This document shows, piece by piece, positions 32,534 to 44,149 of a stretch of 64,000 bases of DNA; position 1 is the stretch's first letter, and each line of letters starts with the position of its first letter. Under the pieces are notes generated by a model, which was not told the origin of the DNA, did not search any database, and worked only from the letters and a program-made list of their open reading frames with translations. Position numbers and translations under genes: made by a program. Source of the stretch: Gammaproteobacteria bacterium (GTDB taxonomy: Bacteria; Pseudomonadota; Gammaproteobacteria; Steroidobacterales; Rariloculaceae); the NCBI GenBank assembly GCA_022820625.1, contig JAJEFE010000062.1, forward strand, positions 1 to 64,000. The letters run 5' to 3'.

Positions 32534-33373
32534 ATGGCTGGTTCCGACCGGATTGCAGATACAGTGCCGATGCGGTTAACGGCATGCGCCCTGCTTGCAG
32601 TTGCGGCGTCTCTTGCGGCTCCCATTCCCTTGCCGGCGCAGGACGCTGAAGGCGCCGCCCTTCCCGACTGGAGCGGTGTCTGGCAGATGACCAGCAACAC
32701 GGTCTTCGACCAGGCGACCGTGGATCCCCCCGGAGGCAGCTCCAATGCCCCGGGTACGCGCGAGTATCCGCCCTACAACGACGAATGGGAAGCGAAATAC
32801 GCCGCCAACCGCGAACGGGTCCGGCGTGGCGAGTTCCCCGATCCCATCACGACCTGCGGCACGCCGGCCGGATTCCCCAGGATGATGAACCTGCCCGCCG
32901 GTATCGAGTTCATCGTCAAGCCGGAACAGGTCTGGATCATCACGGAGGACGGTCCGAACATCCTGCGGATCTACACCGACGGCCGCAGCCACCCCGCCCC
33001 CGAAGACAGATGGCCGACCTACAGCGGTGAATCCGTCGGCCACTGGGAGGGCGACACGCTGGTTTTCGAAACCATCAGTCTCAAGGGCGATGGCGATACC
33101 ATTCTGGACCGAACGGGACTCGTCCTGAGCACGCAAGCCAGGATTGTCACCCGCCTGAACAGGATCGGGGACGGTCTCATGGAAGCGCAGTTCACCATCG
33201 AGGATCCCGAAGCGCTGACGGCGCCCTGGCGCGTCGCAAAGCAATACCGCAAGCTGGAGCCCGGCACGCGAATGATCGAATTCGCCTGCGCGGAGAACAA
33301 TCGCAACCCGGTCGATACCGCGGGCAGAACGCTTACCCTCGACCGGGAGGGCAACATACTGGACGATCTTTGA
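32534..33373 (+). CDS. Secreted protein of unknown function, paralogue of 38213 and 39393
   Basis: The 279-residue product has a signal peptide (MRLTACALLAVAASLAAPIP, from an internal Met at codon 13, ending LPAQ). I chose the ATG at 32534 because GGAG precedes it. The mature protein begins LPDWSGVWQM and contains SVGHWEGDTLVFETISLKG, a motif shared with two other proteins of the window. No catalytic motif is obvious. A DUF6152-like gene follows after 40 bp, and the same pairing recurs at 39 kb. Confidence 0.72.
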   Translation: MAGSDRIADTVPMRLTACALLAVAASLAAPIPLPAQDAEGAALPDWSGVWQMTSNTVFDQATVDPPGGSSNAPGTREYPPYNDEWEAKYAANRERVRRGEFPDPITTCGTPAGFPRMMNLPAGIEFIVKPEQVWIITEDGPNILRIYTDGRSHPAPEDRWPTYSGESVGHWEGDTLVFETISLKGDGDTILDRTGLVLSTQARIVTRLNRIGDGLMEAQFTIEDPEALTAPWRVAKQYRKLEPGTRMIEFACAENNRNPVDTAGRTLTLDREGNILDDL

Positions 33374-33413
33374 ACGTGTCTGCGAACTCGCAATACCACC
33401 TGGAGCGACTGAC

Positions 33414-33794
33414 ATGAATGCAAGTAAAGCGCTGCCAATCTCGATCGGATGCATCCTCGCGGGATTCGCACTCGCGAGTTCCGCCCATCACGCCGCAACC
33501 ATGTTCGATCGCGGGCAAACCGTCGAATTGTCCGGCGAAATCGTCGAGTTTCAGTGGACCTCACCCCACGTCTGGATCCAGATCAACGTCGAGAACGAGT
33601 CCGGCGAGGTCGTGGAGTGGAGCGTGGAAGGCAGCGTACCCAACCGGCTCTACCGCGCGGGCTGGCGTCCGACCACCTTCAGGCCCGGCGACCGAGTCAC
33701 GATTCGCGGGGCGCCCATGCGCAACGGAGCGCCGGCCGCCCTGTTCATCGGCGCCAGGCTGGCCGACGGCTCGACGCTCGGCCGATTCGAATAA
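33414..33794 (+). CDS. DUF6152-like small secreted protein
   Basis: The 126-residue protein has a signal peptide (ending ALASSAHH) and starts its mature part with a His-His pair. Core segments are VELSGEIVEFQWTSPHVWIQ, VEWSVEGSVPNRLYRAGW and FRPGDRVTIRGAPMRNG, which read as a small beta-barrel. The paralogue at 39004 shows the same pattern (HHSIALQYD, RIVEMEWRNPHSWL, LYRRGWRRDDL). I recall the family as DUF6152; function is unknown. GGAG lies upstream of the ATG. It follows the secreted partner gene after 40 bp. Confidence 0.72.
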   Translation: MNASKALPISIGCILAGFALASSAHHAATMFDRGQTVELSGEIVEFQWTSPHVWIQINVENESGEVVEWSVEGSVPNRLYRAGWRPTTFRPGDRVTIRGAPMRNGAPAALFIGARLADGSTLGRFE

Positions 33795-33868
33795 CCTGCA
33801 GGAAATCGATTCAAATCCGTTAGCGCCACCGGCAGCAAGCACAGTTCGTTGACTGCCGCACAGGCAAA

Positions 33869-33897
33869 CGGCCGGTCAGCTCAGCGCTGGCCGGCCG
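33869..33897. terminator. Hairpin between converging genes
   Basis: A 12-bp stem with one G-T wobble (CGGCCGGTCAGC / GCTGGCCGGCCG) and a 5-base loop lies between the ends of the DUF6152-like gene and the TonB receptor gene, which converge. It probably terminates transcription from both sides although it lacks a T-run. Confidence 0.5.
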
Positions 33898-33921
33898 CCG
33901 CATTTCGCGCCAATGACGCGA

Positions 33922-36870
33922 TCAGGGATCGAACGACTGCCTGTACTGTAAACCGTACTCCCTGAGCCGCCGGAAGAATCGGGCGCCCTGGGTCTCCGGT
34001 GGCTCGGTGGCAAACAGGTTCCGCACGGAGAAGTTCAGACTGGCACCGTTGTTGAAGCGATGGATGTAGTTCGCGGAGATGATCCACTGTCCTTCTTCAT
34101 GATTGAAGATCGACTTGTCCTCCTCCGAGAGGTCCTCGTACTGCGCGTTCAGGCCGTCGCGATAGTTGGCGTTCAACCGCAGCGTATGGTCGCCCCGGAT
34201 GGTCAGCAACAGCGGCATATTGCCCTGCCAGTGCGGCATGGAGGTCACGCCGTTGAATCCGCCGCCCATCCCGACGGTGGCATTGATATTGCGTCCGATG
34301 GCGTCACAGACGAACTCTTCACACAGAACTTCCACTCCGGCGCCCATCAGCGCATTCGGGAATTCATACTTCAGGGTGAAGGATGCCTGCGGCGTGAACC
34401 TCAGCGCTCCCCAGGCAGTGTCGAAATTCAACGCGGCGCGGACGTCGAGAAACTCGGCATCGAGGTAGCCCAAGTTGTCGACAAAGCCGACGATTCGAGC
34501 GACATTATCGATGGTTATCGGCGCGTTCGGATCGCGGGGCACCGCGCAACCTCCGTTTTCGACCGACACGTACTGGATCAATCCCCGGCTCAGTTGCGGA
34601 ATGCCGTTGGCGTTTGTGTTCAGACAAGCCGCCGCGTTCATGACCGTGGGCGCCGTCGGGGTCACGATCCGGTCCTGGAAATCAAAGGCCACCCAGGTCG
34701 CGCCGACGCTGTGGTTGTCCGTGATGTCGTAATCGAAACCGATGGAAAGATTGTCCGCCGTCTGCGGCTTGACGTCCGGGTTGGACGCAATCTCGTAGAT
34801 GAAGGAAATCCCGCCCATCGCGCCGTAACTCATGCCTCCCACGGTCACGTTGGCCATGTTCATGCCCTGAATGATCTGGCTGGCGGAGGAGTGGACGATC
34901 GACGGCCCGCGGAACGACGTGCCGTAGGACGCGCGCAGCGTGAGATCGTCTGTCGCCGTCCAGTTCAGGGCGACCTTCGGCGTGGTCTGCGACAAACCGT
35001 TATCGTACTCCTCGTTGCGGACCGCCAACTGTACGTTCACGCTGTCCGTCAACGGCAGCGCCGCCTCGGCGAACACCGAGTTGACGCTCTGCTTGCCGCT
35101 CCAGTCGTTGAACGTGCCGACGGTGGCAAGCTGGCCCTGGTTCGCAAGCACGTCGGAATCACGTTCCATGCTCTCCCGGCGCGTGGCGACGCCCGCGGCA
35201 AGTCCGATGGGACCGCCGGCGAGTTCGCCGACCTCACCCGTGACGAGGAAATCCCCGCTGGTGAAGTTGTTCTGGAAGACGTCCAGGCGATTCGGGCTCA
35301 GCCATTCCACCATATCCCGGTCGTTGGCAAGTCCCAGAGATTCCGCATTGGGCAATCCCGCGCTCATGAACGGATTGTAGTAGTGACAGAAGCCGGCACC
35401 GGGCATCACGTCGGTATTGAACGGATCGCTAACGCCGCAGTCGGGTCCGCCGTAGCCGTTGAGCGCCAGGGGCAGGTTGGCTTTCAGCATGTCCCGGACG
35501 CCCTGGTAGGACTGGAAGTAGGCCGTCTGCACATCGAAACTCCACTCCCAGCTCCCCGTCAGCTGCCCGTCGAGGGAAAACACGGCCCGCAAGTGGTCGG
35601 CCCGCGTGAAGGCGTCGAATTCCTCGCCGTAGGGCAACGTCTCGGCTTCCATGTAGACAGGCACGCTCATGCCCATGGCGGTACCGAACGAGCGAATCAT
35701 GCTCTTTGCACGAACGTAGCCGGGGTTGTGGGTGGGAATGGCGTAATCGGTCCCCAGACGAATGGGCGGCACGGCCCAGGTTCTTGCGATATTGTCGCCC
35801 CAGAGGTCCGTTTCGGCGATACGCTCGCGCCCGAAATTGAGTTCGATCCCGGCCCGCAGTGCGTCGCTGAAATTGTGCTCCGCCGAGGTGTAGAGCGTCA
35901 GCAGCTTCTTGTCGTGCTGGATCACGTTTCCCGGATTGTAGCCGGAAGGCTGCGCGCAGACGGTGGCATCCGACGGGCTTGCGACCTCACGGGTGAAATC
36001 CGCGTCGACCGCCGGGTACCTGGCCAACAGCGGCGGCCCCAGTTCCGGGTTGCCGCAGTCGGGGTCCACCCATGTGCCCATGGCCGGCGCGTCAAAAGCG
36101 CCGCCCTGTATCACGGTCAGGCCTGTCCCCGTCTCGGGCGTGACGTCGGGGTCCGGGTCGTCGGCAAACTCGATATCGCCGATACCGATCCTGTCGGTCT
36201 CGGTGAACTCGATGGCAAAGATGCCGCTGGTCGTCTCGTTGCCGGCCCCCCAGATCGCGCCGAACGTATAGTCGTTGGCGTCGGTGACCGCTTCGTTGAT
36301 CCGCGTGTCGATCGAGACATCGAATCCCCTGAAGGCGTCGCGGGTGATGAAGTTCACCACGCCCGCCACCGGGTCGGAACCGAACAGCGCCGAACCGCCG
36401 TCCAGAAGGATTTCCGTGCGCCCGATGGCGATGCGGGGCACCATGGCGTTCAGGTCCGGCGACGGCCAGCCCTGCCCGTCAATGACCGAGTTGATGGAAC
36501 GGCGGCCGTTGATGACGGTGAGCGTGTTCTCGTCGCCGATGCCGCGCAGATTGACCTGGGCCGATCGCCCACCGCCCCGTACCCGCGGCTGGCCGTTGGC
36601 GCCGGTCTGCTGACCGGTATCGCCCGAGTAGTTCTGCGGCACGCTGGTCACGAAGTACTGCATCAGATCCTGGGGCGCCTCCAGCCGGATATCCTCGCCG
36701 TCGATGACGGATACCGGAGAGGGCGAATCGACCCCCGTGTAGAGATACGATCCGGTAACGACGATTTCCTCCAGCTCCTCGCCTTCCTGACCGTACGCGG
36801 TGGCGAACACCATGGCGGTCCCCAACAGGCCCGCCGTCACGCTGCGCAAGATTCTCTCTGGCTTGTCCAT
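33922..36870 (-). CDS. Large TonB-dependent outer-membrane receptor
   Basis: The 982-residue receptor has a signal peptide (ending ATAYGQ), a TonB box (LEEIVVTGSYLYTGVDSPSP) and a plug with QVNLRGIGDENTLTVINGRR and RTEILLDGGSALFGSDPVAG. The large barrel with long loops is typical of receptors for bulky organic substrates such as oligosaccharides or peptides. It ends YRQSFDP, two residues past the usual terminal aromatic. AAGGGA precedes the ATG. The amidohydrolase operon lies upstream on the same strand, 281 bp away, so it may be functionally linked to it. Confidence 0.9.
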   Translation of the reverse strand: MDKPERILRSVTAGLLGTAMVFATAYGQEGEELEEIVVTGSYLYTGVDSPSPVSVIDGEDIRLEAPQDLMQYFVTSVPQNYSGDTGQQTGANGQPRVRGGGRSAQVNLRGIGDENTLTVINGRRSINSVIDGQGWPSPDLNAMVPRIAIGRTEILLDGGSALFGSDPVAGVVNFITRDAFRGFDVSIDTRINEAVTDANDYTFGAIWGAGNETTSGIFAIEFTETDRIGIGDIEFADDPDPDVTPETGTGLTVIQGGAFDAPAMGTWVDPDCGNPELGPPLLARYPAVDADFTREVASPSDATVCAQPSGYNPGNVIQHDKKLLTLYTSAEHNFSDALRAGIELNFGRERIAETDLWGDNIARTWAVPPIRLGTDYAIPTHNPGYVRAKSMIRSFGTAMGMSVPVYMEAETLPYGEEFDAFTRADHLRAVFSLDGQLTGSWEWSFDVQTAYFQSYQGVRDMLKANLPLALNGYGGPDCGVSDPFNTDVMPGAGFCHYYNPFMSAGLPNAESLGLANDRDMVEWLSPNRLDVFQNNFTSGDFLVTGEVGELAGGPIGLAAGVATRRESMERDSDVLANQGQLATVGTFNDWSGKQSVNSVFAEAALPLTDSVNVQLAVRNEEYDNGLSQTTPKVALNWTATDDLTLRASYGTSFRGPSIVHSSASQIIQGMNMANVTVGGMSYGAMGGISFIYEIASNPDVKPQTADNLSIGFDYDITDNHSVGATWVAFDFQDRIVTPTAPTVMNAAACLNTNANGIPQLSRGLIQYVSVENGGCAVPRDPNAPITIDNVARIVGFVDNLGYLDAEFLDVRAALNFDTAWGALRFTPQASFTLKYEFPNALMGAGVEVLCEEFVCDAIGRNINATVGMGGGFNGVTSMPHWQGNMPLLLTIRGDHTLRLNANYRDGLNAQYEDLSEEDKSIFNHEEGQWIISANYIHRFNNGASLNFSVRNLFATEPPETQGARFFRRLREYGLQYRQSFDP

Positions 36871-37151
36871 TTCATCTGTTCCCTTTTTTGCCTGAAACCC
36901 CTGATACGGCTATCTCATGCCGCAACCATTACAACATGTTCATGTTCGGCGCGCATAGGATAGTACGAGTTGCGGGAAAAAGGCGATACGCAGAGGCACG
37001 GACCCCAAGTCTTTTTCATGCATTTTCGCGCTTTTTTCATGCCATCGTCGCGCACACGCAACAATGACATGACGACAAACCGAATTTCGCTGCGCAATCG
37101 ACTCGAACCGAATGCGTGGCCGCACCGATGCGGCAAACGGTTGTTCTGCTG
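36871..37151. other. Gap between receptor and amidohydrolase genes
   Basis: No gene is visible. The half next to the receptor must hold its promoter; it contains ACATGTTCATGT-like palindromic sequence near 36930 and two copies of a TTTTTCATGC motif (about 37012 and 37033). I could not identify convincing -35 and -10 boxes. Confidence 0.3.
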
Positions 37152-38216
37152 CTAGACGTCCAGCCGCAATAGCTCGATCAGGTTGCCGCCCAGAATCGCG
37201 ACCTTTTCCTCGTCGCTCAGCGACGGTGAGTCGACGACAAGATCGATGGTATCCGGCCACGCAAACGGCATGTCGGATCCGTAGACGACCTGACTGGCAC
37301 CGGCAACAGCCACCAGGTGCCGCAGCCCCTCCTCGTTGAACACCATGGTGTCCACGAGAATCTGGGTCCGCAGGTACTCGCTGGGATTCTTCGTGTTGAC
37401 GCAATTGGCATTGTTGCGGGCGCACGCGACCTCGGACCTGCCCAGGTACGACGGCAAGTACCCGCCGCCGTGGGCAGCCACCACTTTGAGATTGGGGAAA
37501 CGGTCGAACGCGCCGTCGAAAATCATCCGGGACAGGAAGAGCGTCGTTTCCAGGGGGTTGCCGATCACGTTGCCGAGACCGCCGGTGCCGTCCAGGGCGC
37601 CCGGCTGGATGATGTTCCTCGAGCCGTCCGGATGCATGAACACCGGAACGCCCAGCTCTTCCGCCTTGGCCCAGAACGGATCGTACTTCTCGGTGGACGG
37701 CGCCTCTCCCCGTGCGTGCCCGAGGATCGAAGCGCCGCGGTGCCCGAGTTCCGTCACCGCGTATTCCAGTTGCTCGGCGGCCATCTCCGGGAATTGGAGC
37801 GCAGGCGAGGACAGCGGCACGAACCGGTCGGAATGGGTCGCGCACCACTCGGCCAGTCCTTCGTCGTTGATCCTGACGATCGCCTCGGCCTGCTCCTCGG
37901 TTGCATCGTACCACCAGAAACGGTTCACGCTCAGAGCCGCGATGTCGATGCCCCGCTCGTCCAGGTTATCGATACGGTGCTGGCCGAGCACCAGCATGTC
38001 CTGGAGCGGCGCGTTTTCCAGCGGGGTCCCCTCGATGATTGGCCTCACTTCCTGAAACAGGCAATGAGCGTGGATGTCGACGACGACGACTTCGTTGCCG
38101 CCCACCATCACCTGTTTGCCCCGGGATTGCGCCATGGCCCGCATGACCGGACTCATTACCAGGGCGCCGGCCGCGGCACTGCCTGTGGCCGTCAGGAATG
38201 CTCTTCTGTCGATCAT
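37152..38216 (-). CDS. Tat-exported amidohydrolase, ACMSD-like
   Basis: The 354-residue protein begins with a twin-arginine signal (MIDRRAFLTATGSAAAGALV) and continues into an amidohydrolase_2 fold. Metal-binding segments are visible: DIHAHCLFQE near the N terminus, VFMHPDGS, VVAAHGGGYLP and VVYGSDMPFAWPD, matching the HxH...H...H...D pattern of aminocarboxymuconate-semialdehyde decarboxylase relatives. These decarboxylate or hydrolyse aromatic-derived acids. Export makes it unusual among relatives. Its ATG overlaps the previous gene's TGA, the end of a four-gene coupled operon. AGGAGA lies upstream. Confidence 0.85.
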   Translation of the reverse strand: MIDRRAFLTATGSAAAGALVMSPVMRAMAQSRGKQVMVGGNEVVVVDIHAHCLFQEVRPIIEGTPLENAPLQDMLVLGQHRIDNLDERGIDIAALSVNRFWWYDATEEQAEAIVRINDEGLAEWCATHSDRFVPLSSPALQFPEMAAEQLEYAVTELGHRGASILGHARGEAPSTEKYDPFWAKAEELGVPVFMHPDGSRNIIQPGALDGTGGLGNVIGNPLETTLFLSRMIFDGAFDRFPNLKVVAAHGGGYLPSYLGRSEVACARNNANCVNTKNPSEYLRTQILVDTMVFNEEGLRHLVAVAGASQVVYGSDMPFAWPDTIDLVVDSPSLSDEEKVAILGGNLIELLRLDV

Positions 38217-39007
38217 TGACTTTCTCCTGTTTGTTCTTGATTTAAGTCCTCTGCCAGCGCGTAGCATTCGTATTCGAGTATACGGATGTCTTCTTCCTGG
38301 CGGCGGTACAGCGGCATGCGCATTTGCCAGGGCTCCGTGAAGACCTCGGGATCGGTGACGGTGACCTCGTACATCAGATGATCCGGTCCGACCGGCGTAT
38401 AGCGCTCGACCACGTGCAACGCGTCGCTGTGGAAATTGCCGGACCGGTCGAACCAGGTCTCGTCCGTGAAGTGAACGACGTCCACGACCAGCGTATCCCC
38501 CTCCCAGTGCCCCCGGGAATCGCCCATGTACCACTGGATCGGCCCCTCCAGGCGCTCCCCGCCGAGGAAGATGTTGCGAATCGTATGGACCCACTCATAG
38601 ATCATCACGATCTGGTCCGCCGACTGAATGATCTGGAAGGGATACGGCATGTAGGTGATGCGCGGCACGCCCACCATCTTGCAGTTGGCCTCGGTATCCA
38701 GGGTATGGCGGTTCTCGTAATTCTGCTGCCGCTGCTCCAGCGCCCAGGGTTGATAGGGCAGATGATTGCCGACAACCACGCCCTGCCCCGCCGGAACGCC
38801 GTACTCCGCCGCGTGGTCCTGAACATTCCACACCGCCGTGTTGACCGCCTGCCAGATGCCCTGCAGATCAGGCTGGCCGTCCGCCGTGCGGGGCACGACA
38901 TAGTCCTGGGCTGCCGCCGCTCCGGGGAACGCGAGGGCAATTGCCGCGAACACCGGCAGACAGACGAGGCGATACCCAACGCCGAGCCGGGAAACGGCCC
39001 CGCTCAT
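38213..39007 (-). CDS. Secreted protein of unknown function (paralogue family)
   Basis: The 264-residue product starts at the ATG at 39007, which overlaps the stop of the DUF6152-like gene, and carries a signal peptide ending AAAAQ. The mature protein begins VVPRTADGQPDLQGIWQ and contains MGDSRGHWEGDTLVVDVVHF and DALHVVERYTPVG, both shared with the proteins at 39393 and, less closely, 32534. I know no biochemical function for the family. Its stop overlaps the amidohydrolase start by four bases. Confidence 0.75.
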   Translation of the reverse strand: MSGAVSRLGVGYRLVCLPVFAAIALAFPGAAAAQDYVVPRTADGQPDLQGIWQAVNTAVWNVQDHAAEYGVPAGQGVVVGNHLPYQPWALEQRQQNYENRHTLDTEANCKMVGVPRITYMPYPFQIIQSADQIVMIYEWVHTIRNIFLGGERLEGPIQWYMGDSRGHWEGDTLVVDVVHFTDETWFDRSGNFHSDALHVVERYTPVGPDHLMYEVTVTDPEVFTEPWQMRMPLYRRQEEDIRILEYECYALAEDLNQEQTGESQ

Positions 39008-39405
39008 TGATTCGGCCCGCTGCCGGAGAACAGGGATCGCCCGTCGGCCAACGTCACTTCGTCGCCCTCGATCTGCCGGGATCCGTCGCGGGAAGGAAGC
39101 CCGTGAATTGTGACTTCCGCGCCCAACGGCAGGTCGTCCCGCCGCCAGCCTCGCCGGTACAGCGAATTCGCACCTCCGAATTCCACGCGCCACATTTCCG
39201 GCCTGCCCGCTTCGCCCTCGACCTCGACACTCAACCAGGAGTGCGGATTACGCCATTCCATCTCGACGATTCGGCCGGAGATCGTGATCTCCCGCGTCAT
39301 GTCGTATTGCAGCGCGATGGAATGATGCCCGAGTACCGGCATCGCCATCAGTATCGCAGCGAGAGCAGCACCAGGCGCTGCACAAAATTTGTTCATGGTT
39401 GCCAT
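39004..39405 (-). CDS. DUF6152-like small secreted protein
   Basis: The 133-residue protein has a signal peptide (MNKFCAAPGAALAAILMAMP, from the Met at codon 4) and a mature N terminus at about HHSIALQYD. RIVEMEWRNPHSWLSVEV and NSLYRRGWRRDDLPLG match the paralogue at 33414. It overlaps the upstream secreted-protein gene by 13 bases and the downstream one by four, so all are translated together. No function is known. Confidence 0.75.
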   Translation of the reverse strand: MATMNKFCAAPGAALAAILMAMPVLGHHSIALQYDMTREITISGRIVEMEWRNPHSWLSVEVEGEAGRPEMWRVEFGGANSLYRRGWRRDDLPLGAEVTIHGLPSRDGSRQIEGDEVTLADGRSLFSGSGPNQ

Positions 39406-40331
39406 TGCAGTTCCCTTTCCTCCAGTTCCCAGGCCGCCCGCAAGCGCCTGGCCTCGTCACCCGAAATACCCGGGTAGATCTTGTAGCCGACGTTGCGATA
39501 CGTCTGTGAAGCAAATTCGTTGTCCTCGTAGCAGGCCTCTTCCCATATCTCGAAAGACGGGTCGGGAAGCCGCCTGAACGCCACGGCGATGGTGAAGGGG
39601 CGAGTGTAGACATTGGGATCGTCCAGCGTCGCCTGCCAGTGAAGCGTGTCGGCGTCGATCAGGGTGAATCGCTCGACCACGCGGGCTTCGTCAGTGAAGA
39701 ACCGCCCCCGCTGGTCAAGCCACGCGCGGGCATTCTGGTTGCGGGTCTCCACGACCAGCGAATTGCCCTCCCAATGCCCGTGGGAGTCCCCGTTCCAGAG
39801 CAGAATGTCTTCACCCAGAGGCGCACGGTCCCTCAATTCGATTGTGCGGAAGGCGTGTGCCTCTTCGCCCTGAATCAGAAACGTGTCCGCCGTCTGCACG
39901 AACTGGAGGATGCCCGTCATGTACATGGTCAGCGGGATCCCATCCATGCGGCAAATCGCGTTGTGGTGAACGTAGGCGACGCGGTTGTAGCGGCGTTGCG
40001 CCTCCGCCCAGGGTTGTATGGGGACGAAGCCGTCGGGAGGATCCACCACCACGCTTGGCGCCTCGCCGTCATCCAGCGTCTGCGGATGGGCGTGCAGGCT
40101 TTCGTGCGCGCGCGCCCGGCGGTTCCAGATACCGCTCAGGTCCGGAAATCCGTCCGGCGTGCGAGGTGGATCGAATCGCTCTGCCGCCTCCAGGGCGCAG
40201 GCATGAAACGCGGCGTGATTGTCGTCGGGACAGACCGAATCCGCCCACTGCTGGGCGAAAATCGGAGCCGGCAAGATCACGAGGGCGCATAGCGCGCCCC
40301 ACCCGGAATACAGGATATTCTGCTTGTTCAG
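39393..40331 (-). CDS. Secreted protein of unknown function, probable CTG start
   Basis: It is the first gene of the operon ending in the amidohydrolase. The mature part (FPDLSGIWNRRARAHES; NGDSHGHWEGNSLVVETRNQ; DEARVVERFTLID) is paralogous to 38213. I placed the start at a CTG (40331) because GGAGG lies exactly eight bases upstream and translation then yields an ordinary signal peptide (MNKQNILYSGWGALCALVIL...IFAQ). The conventional alternative is an ATG at 40373 without a ribosome-binding site, which would add 14 partly acidic residues before the signal sequence. Confidence 0.7.
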   Translation of the reverse strand: MNKQNILYSGWGALCALVILPAPIFAQQWADSVCPDDNHAAFHACALEAAERFDPPRTPDGFPDLSGIWNRRARAHESLHAHPQTLDDGEAPSVVVDPPDGFVPIQPWAEAQRRYNRVAYVHHNAICRMDGIPLTMYMTGILQFVQTADTFLIQGEEAHAFRTIELRDRAPLGEDILLWNGDSHGHWEGNSLVVETRNQNARAWLDQRGRFFTDEARVVERFTLIDADTLHWQATLDDPNVYTRPFTIAVAFRRLPDPSFEIWEEACYEDNEFASQTYRNVGYKIYPGISGDEARRLRAAWELEERELQWQP

Positions 40332-40344: not shown

Positions 40345-40522
40345 GGTTCACGGGCCGAGCGCCAAATATCCATGGGTAGAATCGAACTGTCAACACCGCG
40401 ATTTCTGCTAGTATCGTGTCCTGCCCCCTAAAATCGGGCCGGGATGGAGCAACATCTGCCGGCGCGATTCCATGAACTTCGGGGGCGGCCGACAAACAGA
40501 AATAACAACGGGAAGGCCGGGT

Positions 40523-41762: not shown

Positions 41763-42950
41763 TTGAGTTCCAATGCCGCACCGCTGCGACACCTGCGTGT
41801 CGTTGAAATGACCGAAGCCCTGGCGGGGCCCTACTGCAGCATGCTCCTGGGAGACCTGGGCGCCGACGTCATCAAGATCGAACGTCCGGAGCGCGGCGAC
41901 CAGGCACGCGGCTGGGGGCCGCCCTTCGTCCAGGGGGAAAGCGCGTATTTCCTGTCCGTCAACCGCAACAAGCGCAGCGTGGAACTGAACTTCAAGGATC
42001 CGCAGGAGCGCGAATTCCTGCTTCGCCTGTTGGAGACGGCCGACGTCTTCATCACCAACGTGCCTCGCATGTCGTCCCTTGAGCGCGCCGGCATCGATCC
42101 GGATTCCCTGCGCCGCCTGAATCCCCGCCTGGTCTACGCAGCCATCAGCGGTTACGGGCACACGGGACCCAAGGCCGGGCGCGGCGGCTACGACATCATC
42201 GCCCAGGGGGAAGCCGGACTCATGGCCATCACCGGGGACGAACGCTCCGCTCCGATCCGGTTTCCCACACCCATGGCGGACATTACGGCCGGTATCTACA
42301 CCCTGATCGGTATTCTGACCGCGCTTTACGCTCGCGATGACCGCGTAAGCGGGACCGGCCGCGGTCAATTCGTGGATGTCTCGCTGGTGGACTCGCAGAC
42401 CACGTGGCTCGCCAACCTCGCGGGCAGTTTCTTCGCGGCCGGCGAGCACCCGCGGCCGCTCGGCAACACGCACCCCACGGTGACGCCCTATCAGCCGGTG
42501 CGGGCGCGGGACAAGATGCTGATTATCGCCGTGGGTACTGAAAAGCTCTGGGCTCAGTTCTGCGAAGCAACAGGTTTGGACAGCACGGTCGTGGCGGATC
42601 CCAGGTTCGCGACCAATGCAGACCGCAACCGGAATCGGGAAGCGCTGATCCGGATCATCGAGTCGAGGCTCGCTCGCGCGGACGCCGCCGATTGGGTGGA
42701 AAAACTGGTTGAACGCGGCGTTCCTGCCGGACCCATCAATCTTCCGGACGAAACGCTCCGCGACGAGCAGCTTCGCGCCAGGGGCATGATCGTCGAACTG
42801 GAACATCCGCTGCTGGGTATGGTGAAATCACTCGGCAATCCTGTTCACATGTCCGGCAACGGTCCCAGCTACAGGCGCTATCCGCCCCGGTTGGGGGAGC
42901 ATAATGAGGAGGTTCTCGCTGAACTCAAGGCGAGGGAGGCAACGCAATGA
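41763..42950 (+). CDS. Class III CoA transferase (CaiB/BaiF, Frc family)
   Basis: The 395-residue enzyme moves CoA between carboxylic acids. Family signatures are VVEMTEALAGPYCSMLLGDL, GADVIKIERPERGDQARGWG, the catalytic-Asp region and YDIIAQGEAGLMAITGD. The C-terminal half has QFVDVSLVDSQTTWLAN. Its preferred acids cannot be told from sequence; formyl/oxalyl, citramalate, itaconate and carnitine enzymes all belong here. The TTG start follows GGAGGT. Its stop overlaps the start of the hydroxy-acid oxidase gene, so the two are coupled. Confidence 0.88.
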   Translation: MSSNAAPLRHLRVVEMTEALAGPYCSMLLGDLGADVIKIERPERGDQARGWGPPFVQGESAYFLSVNRNKRSVELNFKDPQEREFLLRLLETADVFITNVPRMSSLERAGIDPDSLRRLNPRLVYAAISGYGHTGPKAGRGGYDIIAQGEAGLMAITGDERSAPIRFPTPMADITAGIYTLIGILTALYARDDRVSGTGRGQFVDVSLVDSQTTWLANLAGSFFAAGEHPRPLGNTHPTVTPYQPVRARDKMLIIAVGTEKLWAQFCEATGLDSTVVADPRFATNADRNRNREALIRIIESRLARADAADWVEKLVERGVPAGPINLPDETLRDEQLRARGMIVELEHPLLGMVKSLGNPVHMSGNGPSYRRYPPRLGEHNEEVLAELKAREATQ

Positions 42951-44149
42951 CTGCGAAGGGGAATTCACGCCGCGGCTTTCTTCGGTACCTTGCCGCCAGT
43001 CCGTTGCTGGGTGCGGCTCCTCGCGCGCTGGGCCAGTTCGATTTCACGCTGGCCGACACGCCGATCGCCTCGCCCGATGAAGCGGTCAACGTCTTCGATT
43101 TCGAGGCGGTGGCGCGGAACAACCTGACACTGGCCCACTACGTCTACATGGCATCCGGCGTCGATGACGGCGCCACTGTCGCAGCCAACCGGAGCGGGTT
43201 CGAGAAGTTTCAGTTGCGGGTGCGCCGCCTGATGGACGTTCGCGCGGTGGACACGGAAATCGAACTGTTCGGGACCCGGCATGCGTTTCCGATCGTGCTG
43301 GCCCCCTGCGGGACACAACTCGCGTTTCATCCCGAGGGCGAACTCGCCACGGCACGAGCCTCCGGCTCCCGGGACTGCCTGCAGATCATGTCGACCGTGA
43401 GCAGCTTCGGTGTCGAAGACGTGAACGCCAGTCGCGGCGCTCCGGTCTGGTACCAGCTCTATCCCACAGAGAAATGGGAAGTCACCCAGGGACTGGTCCG
43501 CCGCGCCGAGGCCGCCGGTTGCCCGGCCATCGCCGTGACCGTCGACGTGCCGGTAGTCAATCGCGAAGCCATCGCACGCTTCAGACGCGATACCAACGCG
43601 GAGTGCCTCCCCTGCCATCAACCGGGGCTTGAGTACTCCACCAGCAAACGACCCATGTTCGACGGACTGGACATCAGCGGGCTGAGCAGTACCAGCAGAG
43701 CCCGGAACCTGACCTGGGACTTTGTCGACCGTCTTCGCGACTTCACGACAGCAAGACTTCTGCTCAAGGGTATCGTCACCCACGAGGACGCCAGTCTGGC
43801 CGTGGAGCATGGAGTGGACGGGATCATCGTCTCGAACCACGGCGGCCGGGCGGAAAACAGCGGCCGCGGTACCATTGAATCGCTGCCCGAGGTGGTCGAT
43901 GCCGTGGCCGGAAGGATTCCCGTGCTGGTGGACGGCGGCTTTCGCAGGGGCGTGGACGTCTTCAAGGCGCTTGCCATCGGCGCCGATGCGGTCTGCATCG
44001 GCCGTCCCTACCTCTGGGGCCTGAGCGCTTTCGGTCAGGAAGGGGTGGAAACGGTATTGGACCTGCTACGGCGCGAACTGGTGGTCATGATGCAACAGGC
44101 CGGCACGACCGGCCTCGATGCGATCGACCGGAATTACCTGGTCGGCTGA
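42947..44149 (+). CDS. FMN-dependent alpha-hydroxy-acid oxidase, Tat-exported
   Basis: The 400-residue protein has an N-terminal twin-arginine signal ([19 protein letters not shown]) before a TIM-barrel of the lactate/glycolate oxidase family. Signatures include [30 protein letters not shown], and the active-site [17 protein letters not shown] with the catalytic histidine, then [19 protein letters not shown]. It should oxidise a 2-hydroxy acid to the 2-oxo acid, probably in the periplasm. It overlaps the CoA-transferase gene by four bases, and its 3' end overlaps the converging galU by 16. Confidence 0.87.

Follow-up and report, generated by a model that had tools for sequence, protein, structure and literature searches.

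Paired and fused DUF6152 and GHWEGD proteins form a greatly expanded exported family in a gammaproteobacterial genome

The window, a stretch of 64,000 nucleotides of contig JAJEFE010000062.1 from a gammaproteobacterium of the Rariloculaceae (assembly GCA_022820625.1), contains two loci in which a small exported protein of the Pfam family DUF6152 (PF19649) is encoded beside one or two larger proteins sharing a GHWEGD motif. We found that the two domains are adjacent or fused throughout this genome. We tentatively read the loci as members of one very large family of exported metal-dependent modules that would process small ligands, a reading that we hold to be quite possible, if short of probable. 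In the following, D denotes the DUF6152 partner or domain, G the GHWEGD partner or domain and F a D-G fusion.

Pairing, expansion and age of the modules

A whole-genome search with the DUF6152 profile gave 162 candidates, 150 of which were scored, so that the resulting number of at least 148 D domains is a lower bound. A profile built from the three GHWEGD proteins of the window detected at least 134 G domains. A G domain was located within 600 bp of 120 of the 148 D domains, where uniform placement expects about 5%; the two families thus do not occur mostly apart. The partners were on the same strand in 117 of these 120 close pairs. Single open frames holding both domains, with D ahead of G, numbered 72. 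Genes were also called over about 0.79 Mb of the genome, covering its module-rich parts only, and the neighbour tallies given below refer to the same sequence. In this region, 107 genes encoded D and 105 encoded G; both domains were present in 58 of them, and D preceded G in 58/58. The module arrangements seen in the genome were F, GD, DG, GDG, GGD and FF. Unfused neighbouring D and G partners co-diverge (Mantel r 0.25, P 0.0025). The pairing is not due to chance. From 148 and 134 domains less 72 fusions, we estimate about 210 module genes, roughly 5% of the 4.6-Mb genome.

An earlier sequence-only reading of the window had noted a repeated pairing and suggested that both families belong to a single periplasmic system. 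The pairing is real, but it occurs well over a hundred times and not twice. Adjacency and fusion genome-wide, co-divergence of the partners and the recurrence of cassettes in Acidobacteriota and methanotrophs all bear out a single system.

The module was present in all 22 genomes examined of the same taxonomic family (this genome included), with 4 to more than 100 copies. The lowest number was found in a 1.2-Mb genome, many genomes held 95 or more, and a genome of 1.6 Mb with 98% completeness and 1% contamination held 47. Since relatives with low contamination show the same numbers, the expansion is not an artefact of assembly or contamination. None of 17 sampled genomes from other families of the order contained the module. 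In a class-wide sample of 369 genomes, this genome not counted, D was found in 7 (1–5 copies) and G in 3. Only one of these genomes (G368) holds both, with strong scores and in adjacent position; the D matches of the other six have E-values of 4e-11 to 2e-7 and may be other proteins with the same oligonucleotide/oligosaccharide-binding (OB) fold. In Acidobacteriota the module was present in 22 of 199 sampled genomes, with 1 to more than 20 copies.

Other Gammaproteobacteria also carry the module, and two methanotrophs, among them Methylomonas, hold a single cassette per genome. The order at the methanotroph loci is D-G-G-DUF6644-DUF6644-cytochrome c′, assigned by Pfam at one locus (L137) and by resemblance at the other (L139). 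In the present genome, G-G-D is followed directly by two DUF6644 membrane proteins at C130:23704-27189, the sole such pair in the genome, and this methanotroph-like cassette is possibly the ancestral form. Both window loci have relatives in Acidobacteriota: the G-D-G trio of locus 2 has relatives in the same order at locus L066 (56, 53 and 63% identity), and the pair of locus 1 has neighbouring relatives at locus L084 (54% for G, 53% for D).

Ten further genomes of the family hold relatives of GHWEGD protein 2 of the window (P0005) at 60–92% identity (91% in G005, the nearest relative). Its counterparts share 91–92% identity in two congeners and 68–77% in three other genera, while the closest paralogue within its own genome reaches 67% at most. 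The D domains of the genome have a median pairwise identity of about 29%. As counterparts in other genomes are closer than paralogues, and as D has diverged so far, these identities indicate that the diversification is old and retained, with no recent burst.

N-terminal histidines and predicted folds

In all 104 D paralogues examined from this genome, His-His directly follows an A, G, S or T residue at position −1 (A 86, G 13, T 3, S 2). A PH motif is located about 27 residues past His-His in 103 of the 104; the exception carries AAH. A hydrophobic segment precedes His-His in 70/70 proteins of the subset checked. At foreign loci of Acidobacteriota and Gammaproteobacteria, the His-His start was found in all 81 genuine DUF6152 matches; in this count, two entries scored as lacking it carry HH just beyond the search range, and a third entry is not DUF6152. 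Conservation in a 183-sequence DUF6152 alignment was 1.0 for H1, H2 and H29, 0.99 for P28, 0.98 for G69 and 0.95 for W46. Signal peptidase is predicted to cleave exactly before His-His, and mature D would therefore start with His. An N-terminal His follows the signal peptide in 2.6% of signal-peptide proteins, and families found by an N-terminal His conserved at 65–79% bound Ni and other metals (Franco Cairo et al. 2025, PMC12537917). The His conservation of D is near 100%, compared with 65–79% in those families, and by this measure DUF6152 is a strong metalloprotein candidate.

The sequence of D gave no convincing match to any solved structure. Mature DUF6152 protein 2 of the window (P0004) was modelled with AlphaFold2 from 75 sequences, with a predicted local distance difference test score (pLDDT) of 91 and a predicted template modelling score (pTM) of 0.84. 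The model has the five-stranded beta1-2-3-helix-4-5 topology of an OB fold (strands 14–24, 31–37 and 43–49, helix 53–58, strands 71–79 and 85–93). Its closest solved structures are PriB and SSB proteins (PriB Z 9.3, root-mean-square deviation [rmsd] 2.8 over 81 residues). The D domain is thus a predicted OB fold. Mean-field couplings from 183 DUF6152 sequences recover the hairpin pairs of this fold; of the couplings that involve variable N-terminal residues, D9-L77 ranks 17th and Q7-W31 56th of all pairs.

GHWEGD proteins had no match in Pfam, NCBIfam, PADLOC or the sequences of the PDB; with no catalogued family, the motif was not found to belong to a characterised enzyme. A model of a natural D-G fusion (L063), built from 118 alignment rows, had a pLDDT of 81.6 and a pTM of 0.65. 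Its G part resembles NanoLuc (Z 9.5, rmsd 3.0 over 116 residues), FABP5 (Z 9.3) and retinol-binding proteins, and Foldseek matched it to CRBP1 with an E-value of 3.5e-4. G is thus predicted to be a calycin/FABP-like barrel. Two of its cysteines are near-invariant (100% and 97%; C109 and C248 in P0005) and could form a disulfide. Other conserved positions are R144, D219 and the GHWEGD strand. Tandem double-GHWEGD proteins of 509–536 aa were seen at L110:9992-11554, L115:9962-11509, L124:9968-11575 and L138:10037-11563.

Window loci, fusions and gene neighbourhood

As shown in Table 1, the genes that the sequence-only reading had described at both loci are present, as seen from the gene calls, the Pfam matches and the paralogy of the GHWEGD proteins. 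Both small proteins are full DUF6152 members by score (curated cut-off, 27 bits), and the three GHWEGD proteins are paralogues with 29–35% identity across about 215 aa. Locus 1 (32.6–33.8 kb, plus strand) has the order GHWEGD-DUF6152 with a 40-base gap. Locus 2 (37.2–40.3 kb, minus strand) has the order GHWEGD-DUF6152-GHWEGD-amidohydrolase, and all its successive frames overlap, by 13, 4 and 4 bases; the amidohydrolase, which carries a twin-arginine translocation (Tat) signal, ends the operon next to the TonB receptor. A promoter and terminator scan gave signals no more frequent than in shuffled sequence. Elsewhere in the window (41808-44146), a CaiB-like CoA-transferase gene overlaps a gene for a Tat-exported FMN-dependent alpha-hydroxy-acid oxidase-like protein, both named from reading the sequence only.

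Table 1. Features of the two window loci and fusion proteins carrying a G domain
Feature	Location	Strand	Remarks
GHWEGD protein 1	32570..33373	+	267 aa, export predicted; predicted calycin/FABP-like barrel; no Pfam family
DUF6152 protein 1	33414..33794	+	126 aa; Pfam DUF6152 1e-29, 102.9 bits; predicted mature N-terminus at His-His codons 33486-33491
GHWEGD protein 3	39393..40331	-	Heads locus 2 operon; in-frame ATG also at 40373; predicted calycin/FABP-like barrel
DUF6152 protein 2 (P0004)	39004..39405	-	133 aa; Pfam DUF6152 1.7e-30, 105.4 bits; OB-fold model; predicted mature His-His codons 39327-39322
GHWEGD protein 2 (P0005)	38213..39007	-	264 aa; start overlaps DUF6152 stop by 4 bases
Tat-signal amidohydrolase	37152..38216	-	Relative of ACMSD and 5-carboxyvanillate decarboxylase; co-transcribed neighbour, outside core
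TonB-dependent receptor	33922..36870	-	Neighbour; no particular link to the module found
VOC-G fusions	L079:10755-12506, L086:10806-12569, L098:10812-12548 and seven more		Acidobacteriota and Gammaproteobacteria
GHWEGD-metallo-beta-lactamase fusion	L021:4541-6379	+	This genome, C127
D-G-hydratase-like fusion	L030:4551-6374	-	This genome, C166; C-terminal part weakly resembles 2-oxo-hept-3-ene-1,7-dioate hydratase (E 6e-4)

Ten proteins at nine loci, all inside DUF6152 cassettes, carry VOC domains (glyoxalase/extradiol dioxygenase superfamily) ahead of a C-terminal G. Each apparently has two VOC domains, and a leader is visible in most. G is also fused to a metallo-beta-lactamase domain, and one D-G chain is extended by a hydratase-like region; the hydratase that it weakly resembles is an enzyme of an aromatic pathway. 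These fusions point to small-molecule chemistry in the periplasm, and the VOC and weakly hydratase-like ones are compatible with, but no proof of, the aromatic or polyketide-like substrate that the sequence-only reading had proposed.

Sulfatases were found beside modules in 10 of 130 cases, versus at most 2 of 136 among genes three or more places off, and enzymes of the metallo-beta-lactamase fold in 7 of 130 versus at most 2 of 136. Over the genome as a whole, a module was located within 1 kb of 16 of the 50 sulfatases, versus 11% expected (P 5e-5, the best of three distances tried). The sulfatase-superfamily genes of this genome, about 50 in number, are clustered on few contigs (e.g. C19, C119, C120, C122 and C3).

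Proposed function, alternatives and relation to known systems

In the mechanism that we favour, the N-terminal His-His of D would act with the invariant His of the (N)PH motif, located about 27 residues further along the chain, and would most likely chelate a transition metal in a histidine-brace-like manner, with copper as the best guess. G, possibly tied by a disulfide, would most likely hold a small hydrophobic organic ligand in its barrel. The partners, made as operon neighbours or as a single D-G chain, would act together in the periplasm, most likely in metal-dependent and probably oxidative processing of the ligand. Chemistry is favoured over mere binding because the metal-dependent VOC sits in the place of D in the VOC-G fusions. 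Redox genes around foreign cassettes also speak for the mechanism: PQQ, cbb3-type cytochrome, cytochrome c′ and DUF6644 genes are often near them, in a tally made without a control set. The scale of the expansion argues for substrate diversification, by which the paralogues may have come to serve the catabolism of many ligands.

Several observations weigh against this mechanism. In the D model, pLDDT averages 78 over the ten N-terminal residues, and the couplings of the N-terminal His are uninformative, as invariant columns give artefacts. No CopC-, LPMO- or CusF-like structure was among the D-model matches listed, which does not exclude one. The packing of D and G in the fusion model is unreliable at its pTM, with an unstructured linker of pLDDT below 50, and a shared FABP-like fold is no proof that G binds a ligand. 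The neighbouring sulfatases and metallo-beta-lactamases are hydrolases and not redox partners.

It is also conceivable, but in our view unlikely, that the modules serve metal trafficking or the capture of metal-ligand complexes, as CopC, CusF or 'anglerase'-like proteins do: D would take metal through its N-terminal His, G would hold an organic ligand carrying the metal, and the metal would be passed on without chemistry. The invariance of His-His agrees with such a role, most of the known N-terminal-His families have been given roles in transport or sequestration (PMC12537917, PMC10952591), and two DUF6644 membrane proteins stand behind the core cassette in methanotrophs and once here. However, about 150 divergent copies per genome far exceed the need of metal homeostasis, DUF6644 adjoins just one copy in this genome, and TonB receptors are not enriched by modules (5/130 near versus 5/136 far). 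The fusions of G to VOC, metallo-beta-lactamase and hydratase-like domains also speak against trafficking.

Periplasmic ligand binding with no metal chemistry, with His-His serving folding, export or docking, seems improbable as well. The G barrel is of a ligand-binding type, modules lie near hydrolases, and the scale of the expansion may be likened to that of receptor families. The Bug/TctC and SusC/SusD expansions comprise tens to hundreds of exported paralogues per genome that sort small-molecule substrates; the module folds differ from these, and most modules have no attached transporter. Binding of this kind leaves unexplained why chains of about 29% identity never vary in exactly three histidines and in the site of cleavage, and no transporter family consistently adjoins modules, the commonest, MFS, accounting for 6/130.

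Following the sequence-only reading, the modules could belong to a periplasmic pathway in which the TonB receptor imports an aromatic or polyketide-like compound and the amidohydrolase acts on it. In its favour, the four locus 2 frames overlap, the amidohydrolase resembles aromatic decarboxylases and keeps its place in G005, and a Tat amidohydrolase of 40% identity is located near a cassette at L070. We consider this pathway very unlikely; in most places D and G are paired with neither gene. The amidohydrolase adjoins a cassette only in this genome and G005, its best match in the rest of the family being on another contig, and Amidohydro_2 genes show no significant enrichment near modules (5/18, P 0.12). 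With no synteny in other relatives and no significant enrichment for either gene, the amidohydrolase and the TonB receptor were rejected as core parts and are regarded as local neighbours. A role in phage defence was likewise rejected, there being no PADLOC match.

The D-G system appears to be undescribed. No paper on DUF6152, PF19649, DUF6644 or the GHWEGD motif was found in the open-licence literature, which is no proof of absence. Pfam states no function for DUF6152, and its His-His start, its G partner and its family-wide expansion were not found described. The predicted barrel of G is the fold of FABP, cellular retinoid-binding proteins and NanoLuc; unlike these proteins, G is exported, contains two conserved cysteines and occurs beside D or in one chain with it, and it has no sequence similarity to solved structures. 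CusF is a periplasmic copper chaperone with an OB fold that binds metal via internal His, Met and Trp and not via its N-terminus; D, too, is predicted to be a small periplasmic five-stranded OB-type barrel, with conserved Trp and His. The N-terminal-His metalloproteins (DUF4198, DUF6702, Ang-1/Ang-2; PMC12537917) and the histidine-brace proteins (LPMO, CopC and pMMO-type; PMC10952591) have, like D, a His right after the signal peptide and further conserved His. They are beta-sandwiches, whereas D is a predicted OB fold and starts with two His. D further differs from the N-terminal-His families in its nearly complete conservation, its dedicated partner and its copy number; the main text of PMC12537917 does not include DUF6152.

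N-terminal-His metalloproteins are thus already known, and a form with an OB fold that is partnered by a calycin barrel and present in about 150 copies would be a novel addition to them, or something wholly new if catalytic. Should the metal site be real, these metalloproteins, which include LPMOs and pMMO, would gain a scaffold with an OB fold and a very large number of sequences. The boldest form of the idea, which we think rather doubtful, is a new exported metalloenzyme class with an OB-fold His-His metal site and a calycin substrate domain, whose roughly 150 substrate-specific variants would account for roughly 5% of the genes that members of a single bacterial family carry, and be the main attack of the lineage on dissolved organic molecules. 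The analysis provides function hypotheses for DUF6152, DUF6644 and the still unnamed GHWEGD proteins of Acidobacteriota, methanotrophs and Gammaproteobacteria. In the present genome a single exported module takes about 210 genes, and its expansion marks the whole taxonomic family.

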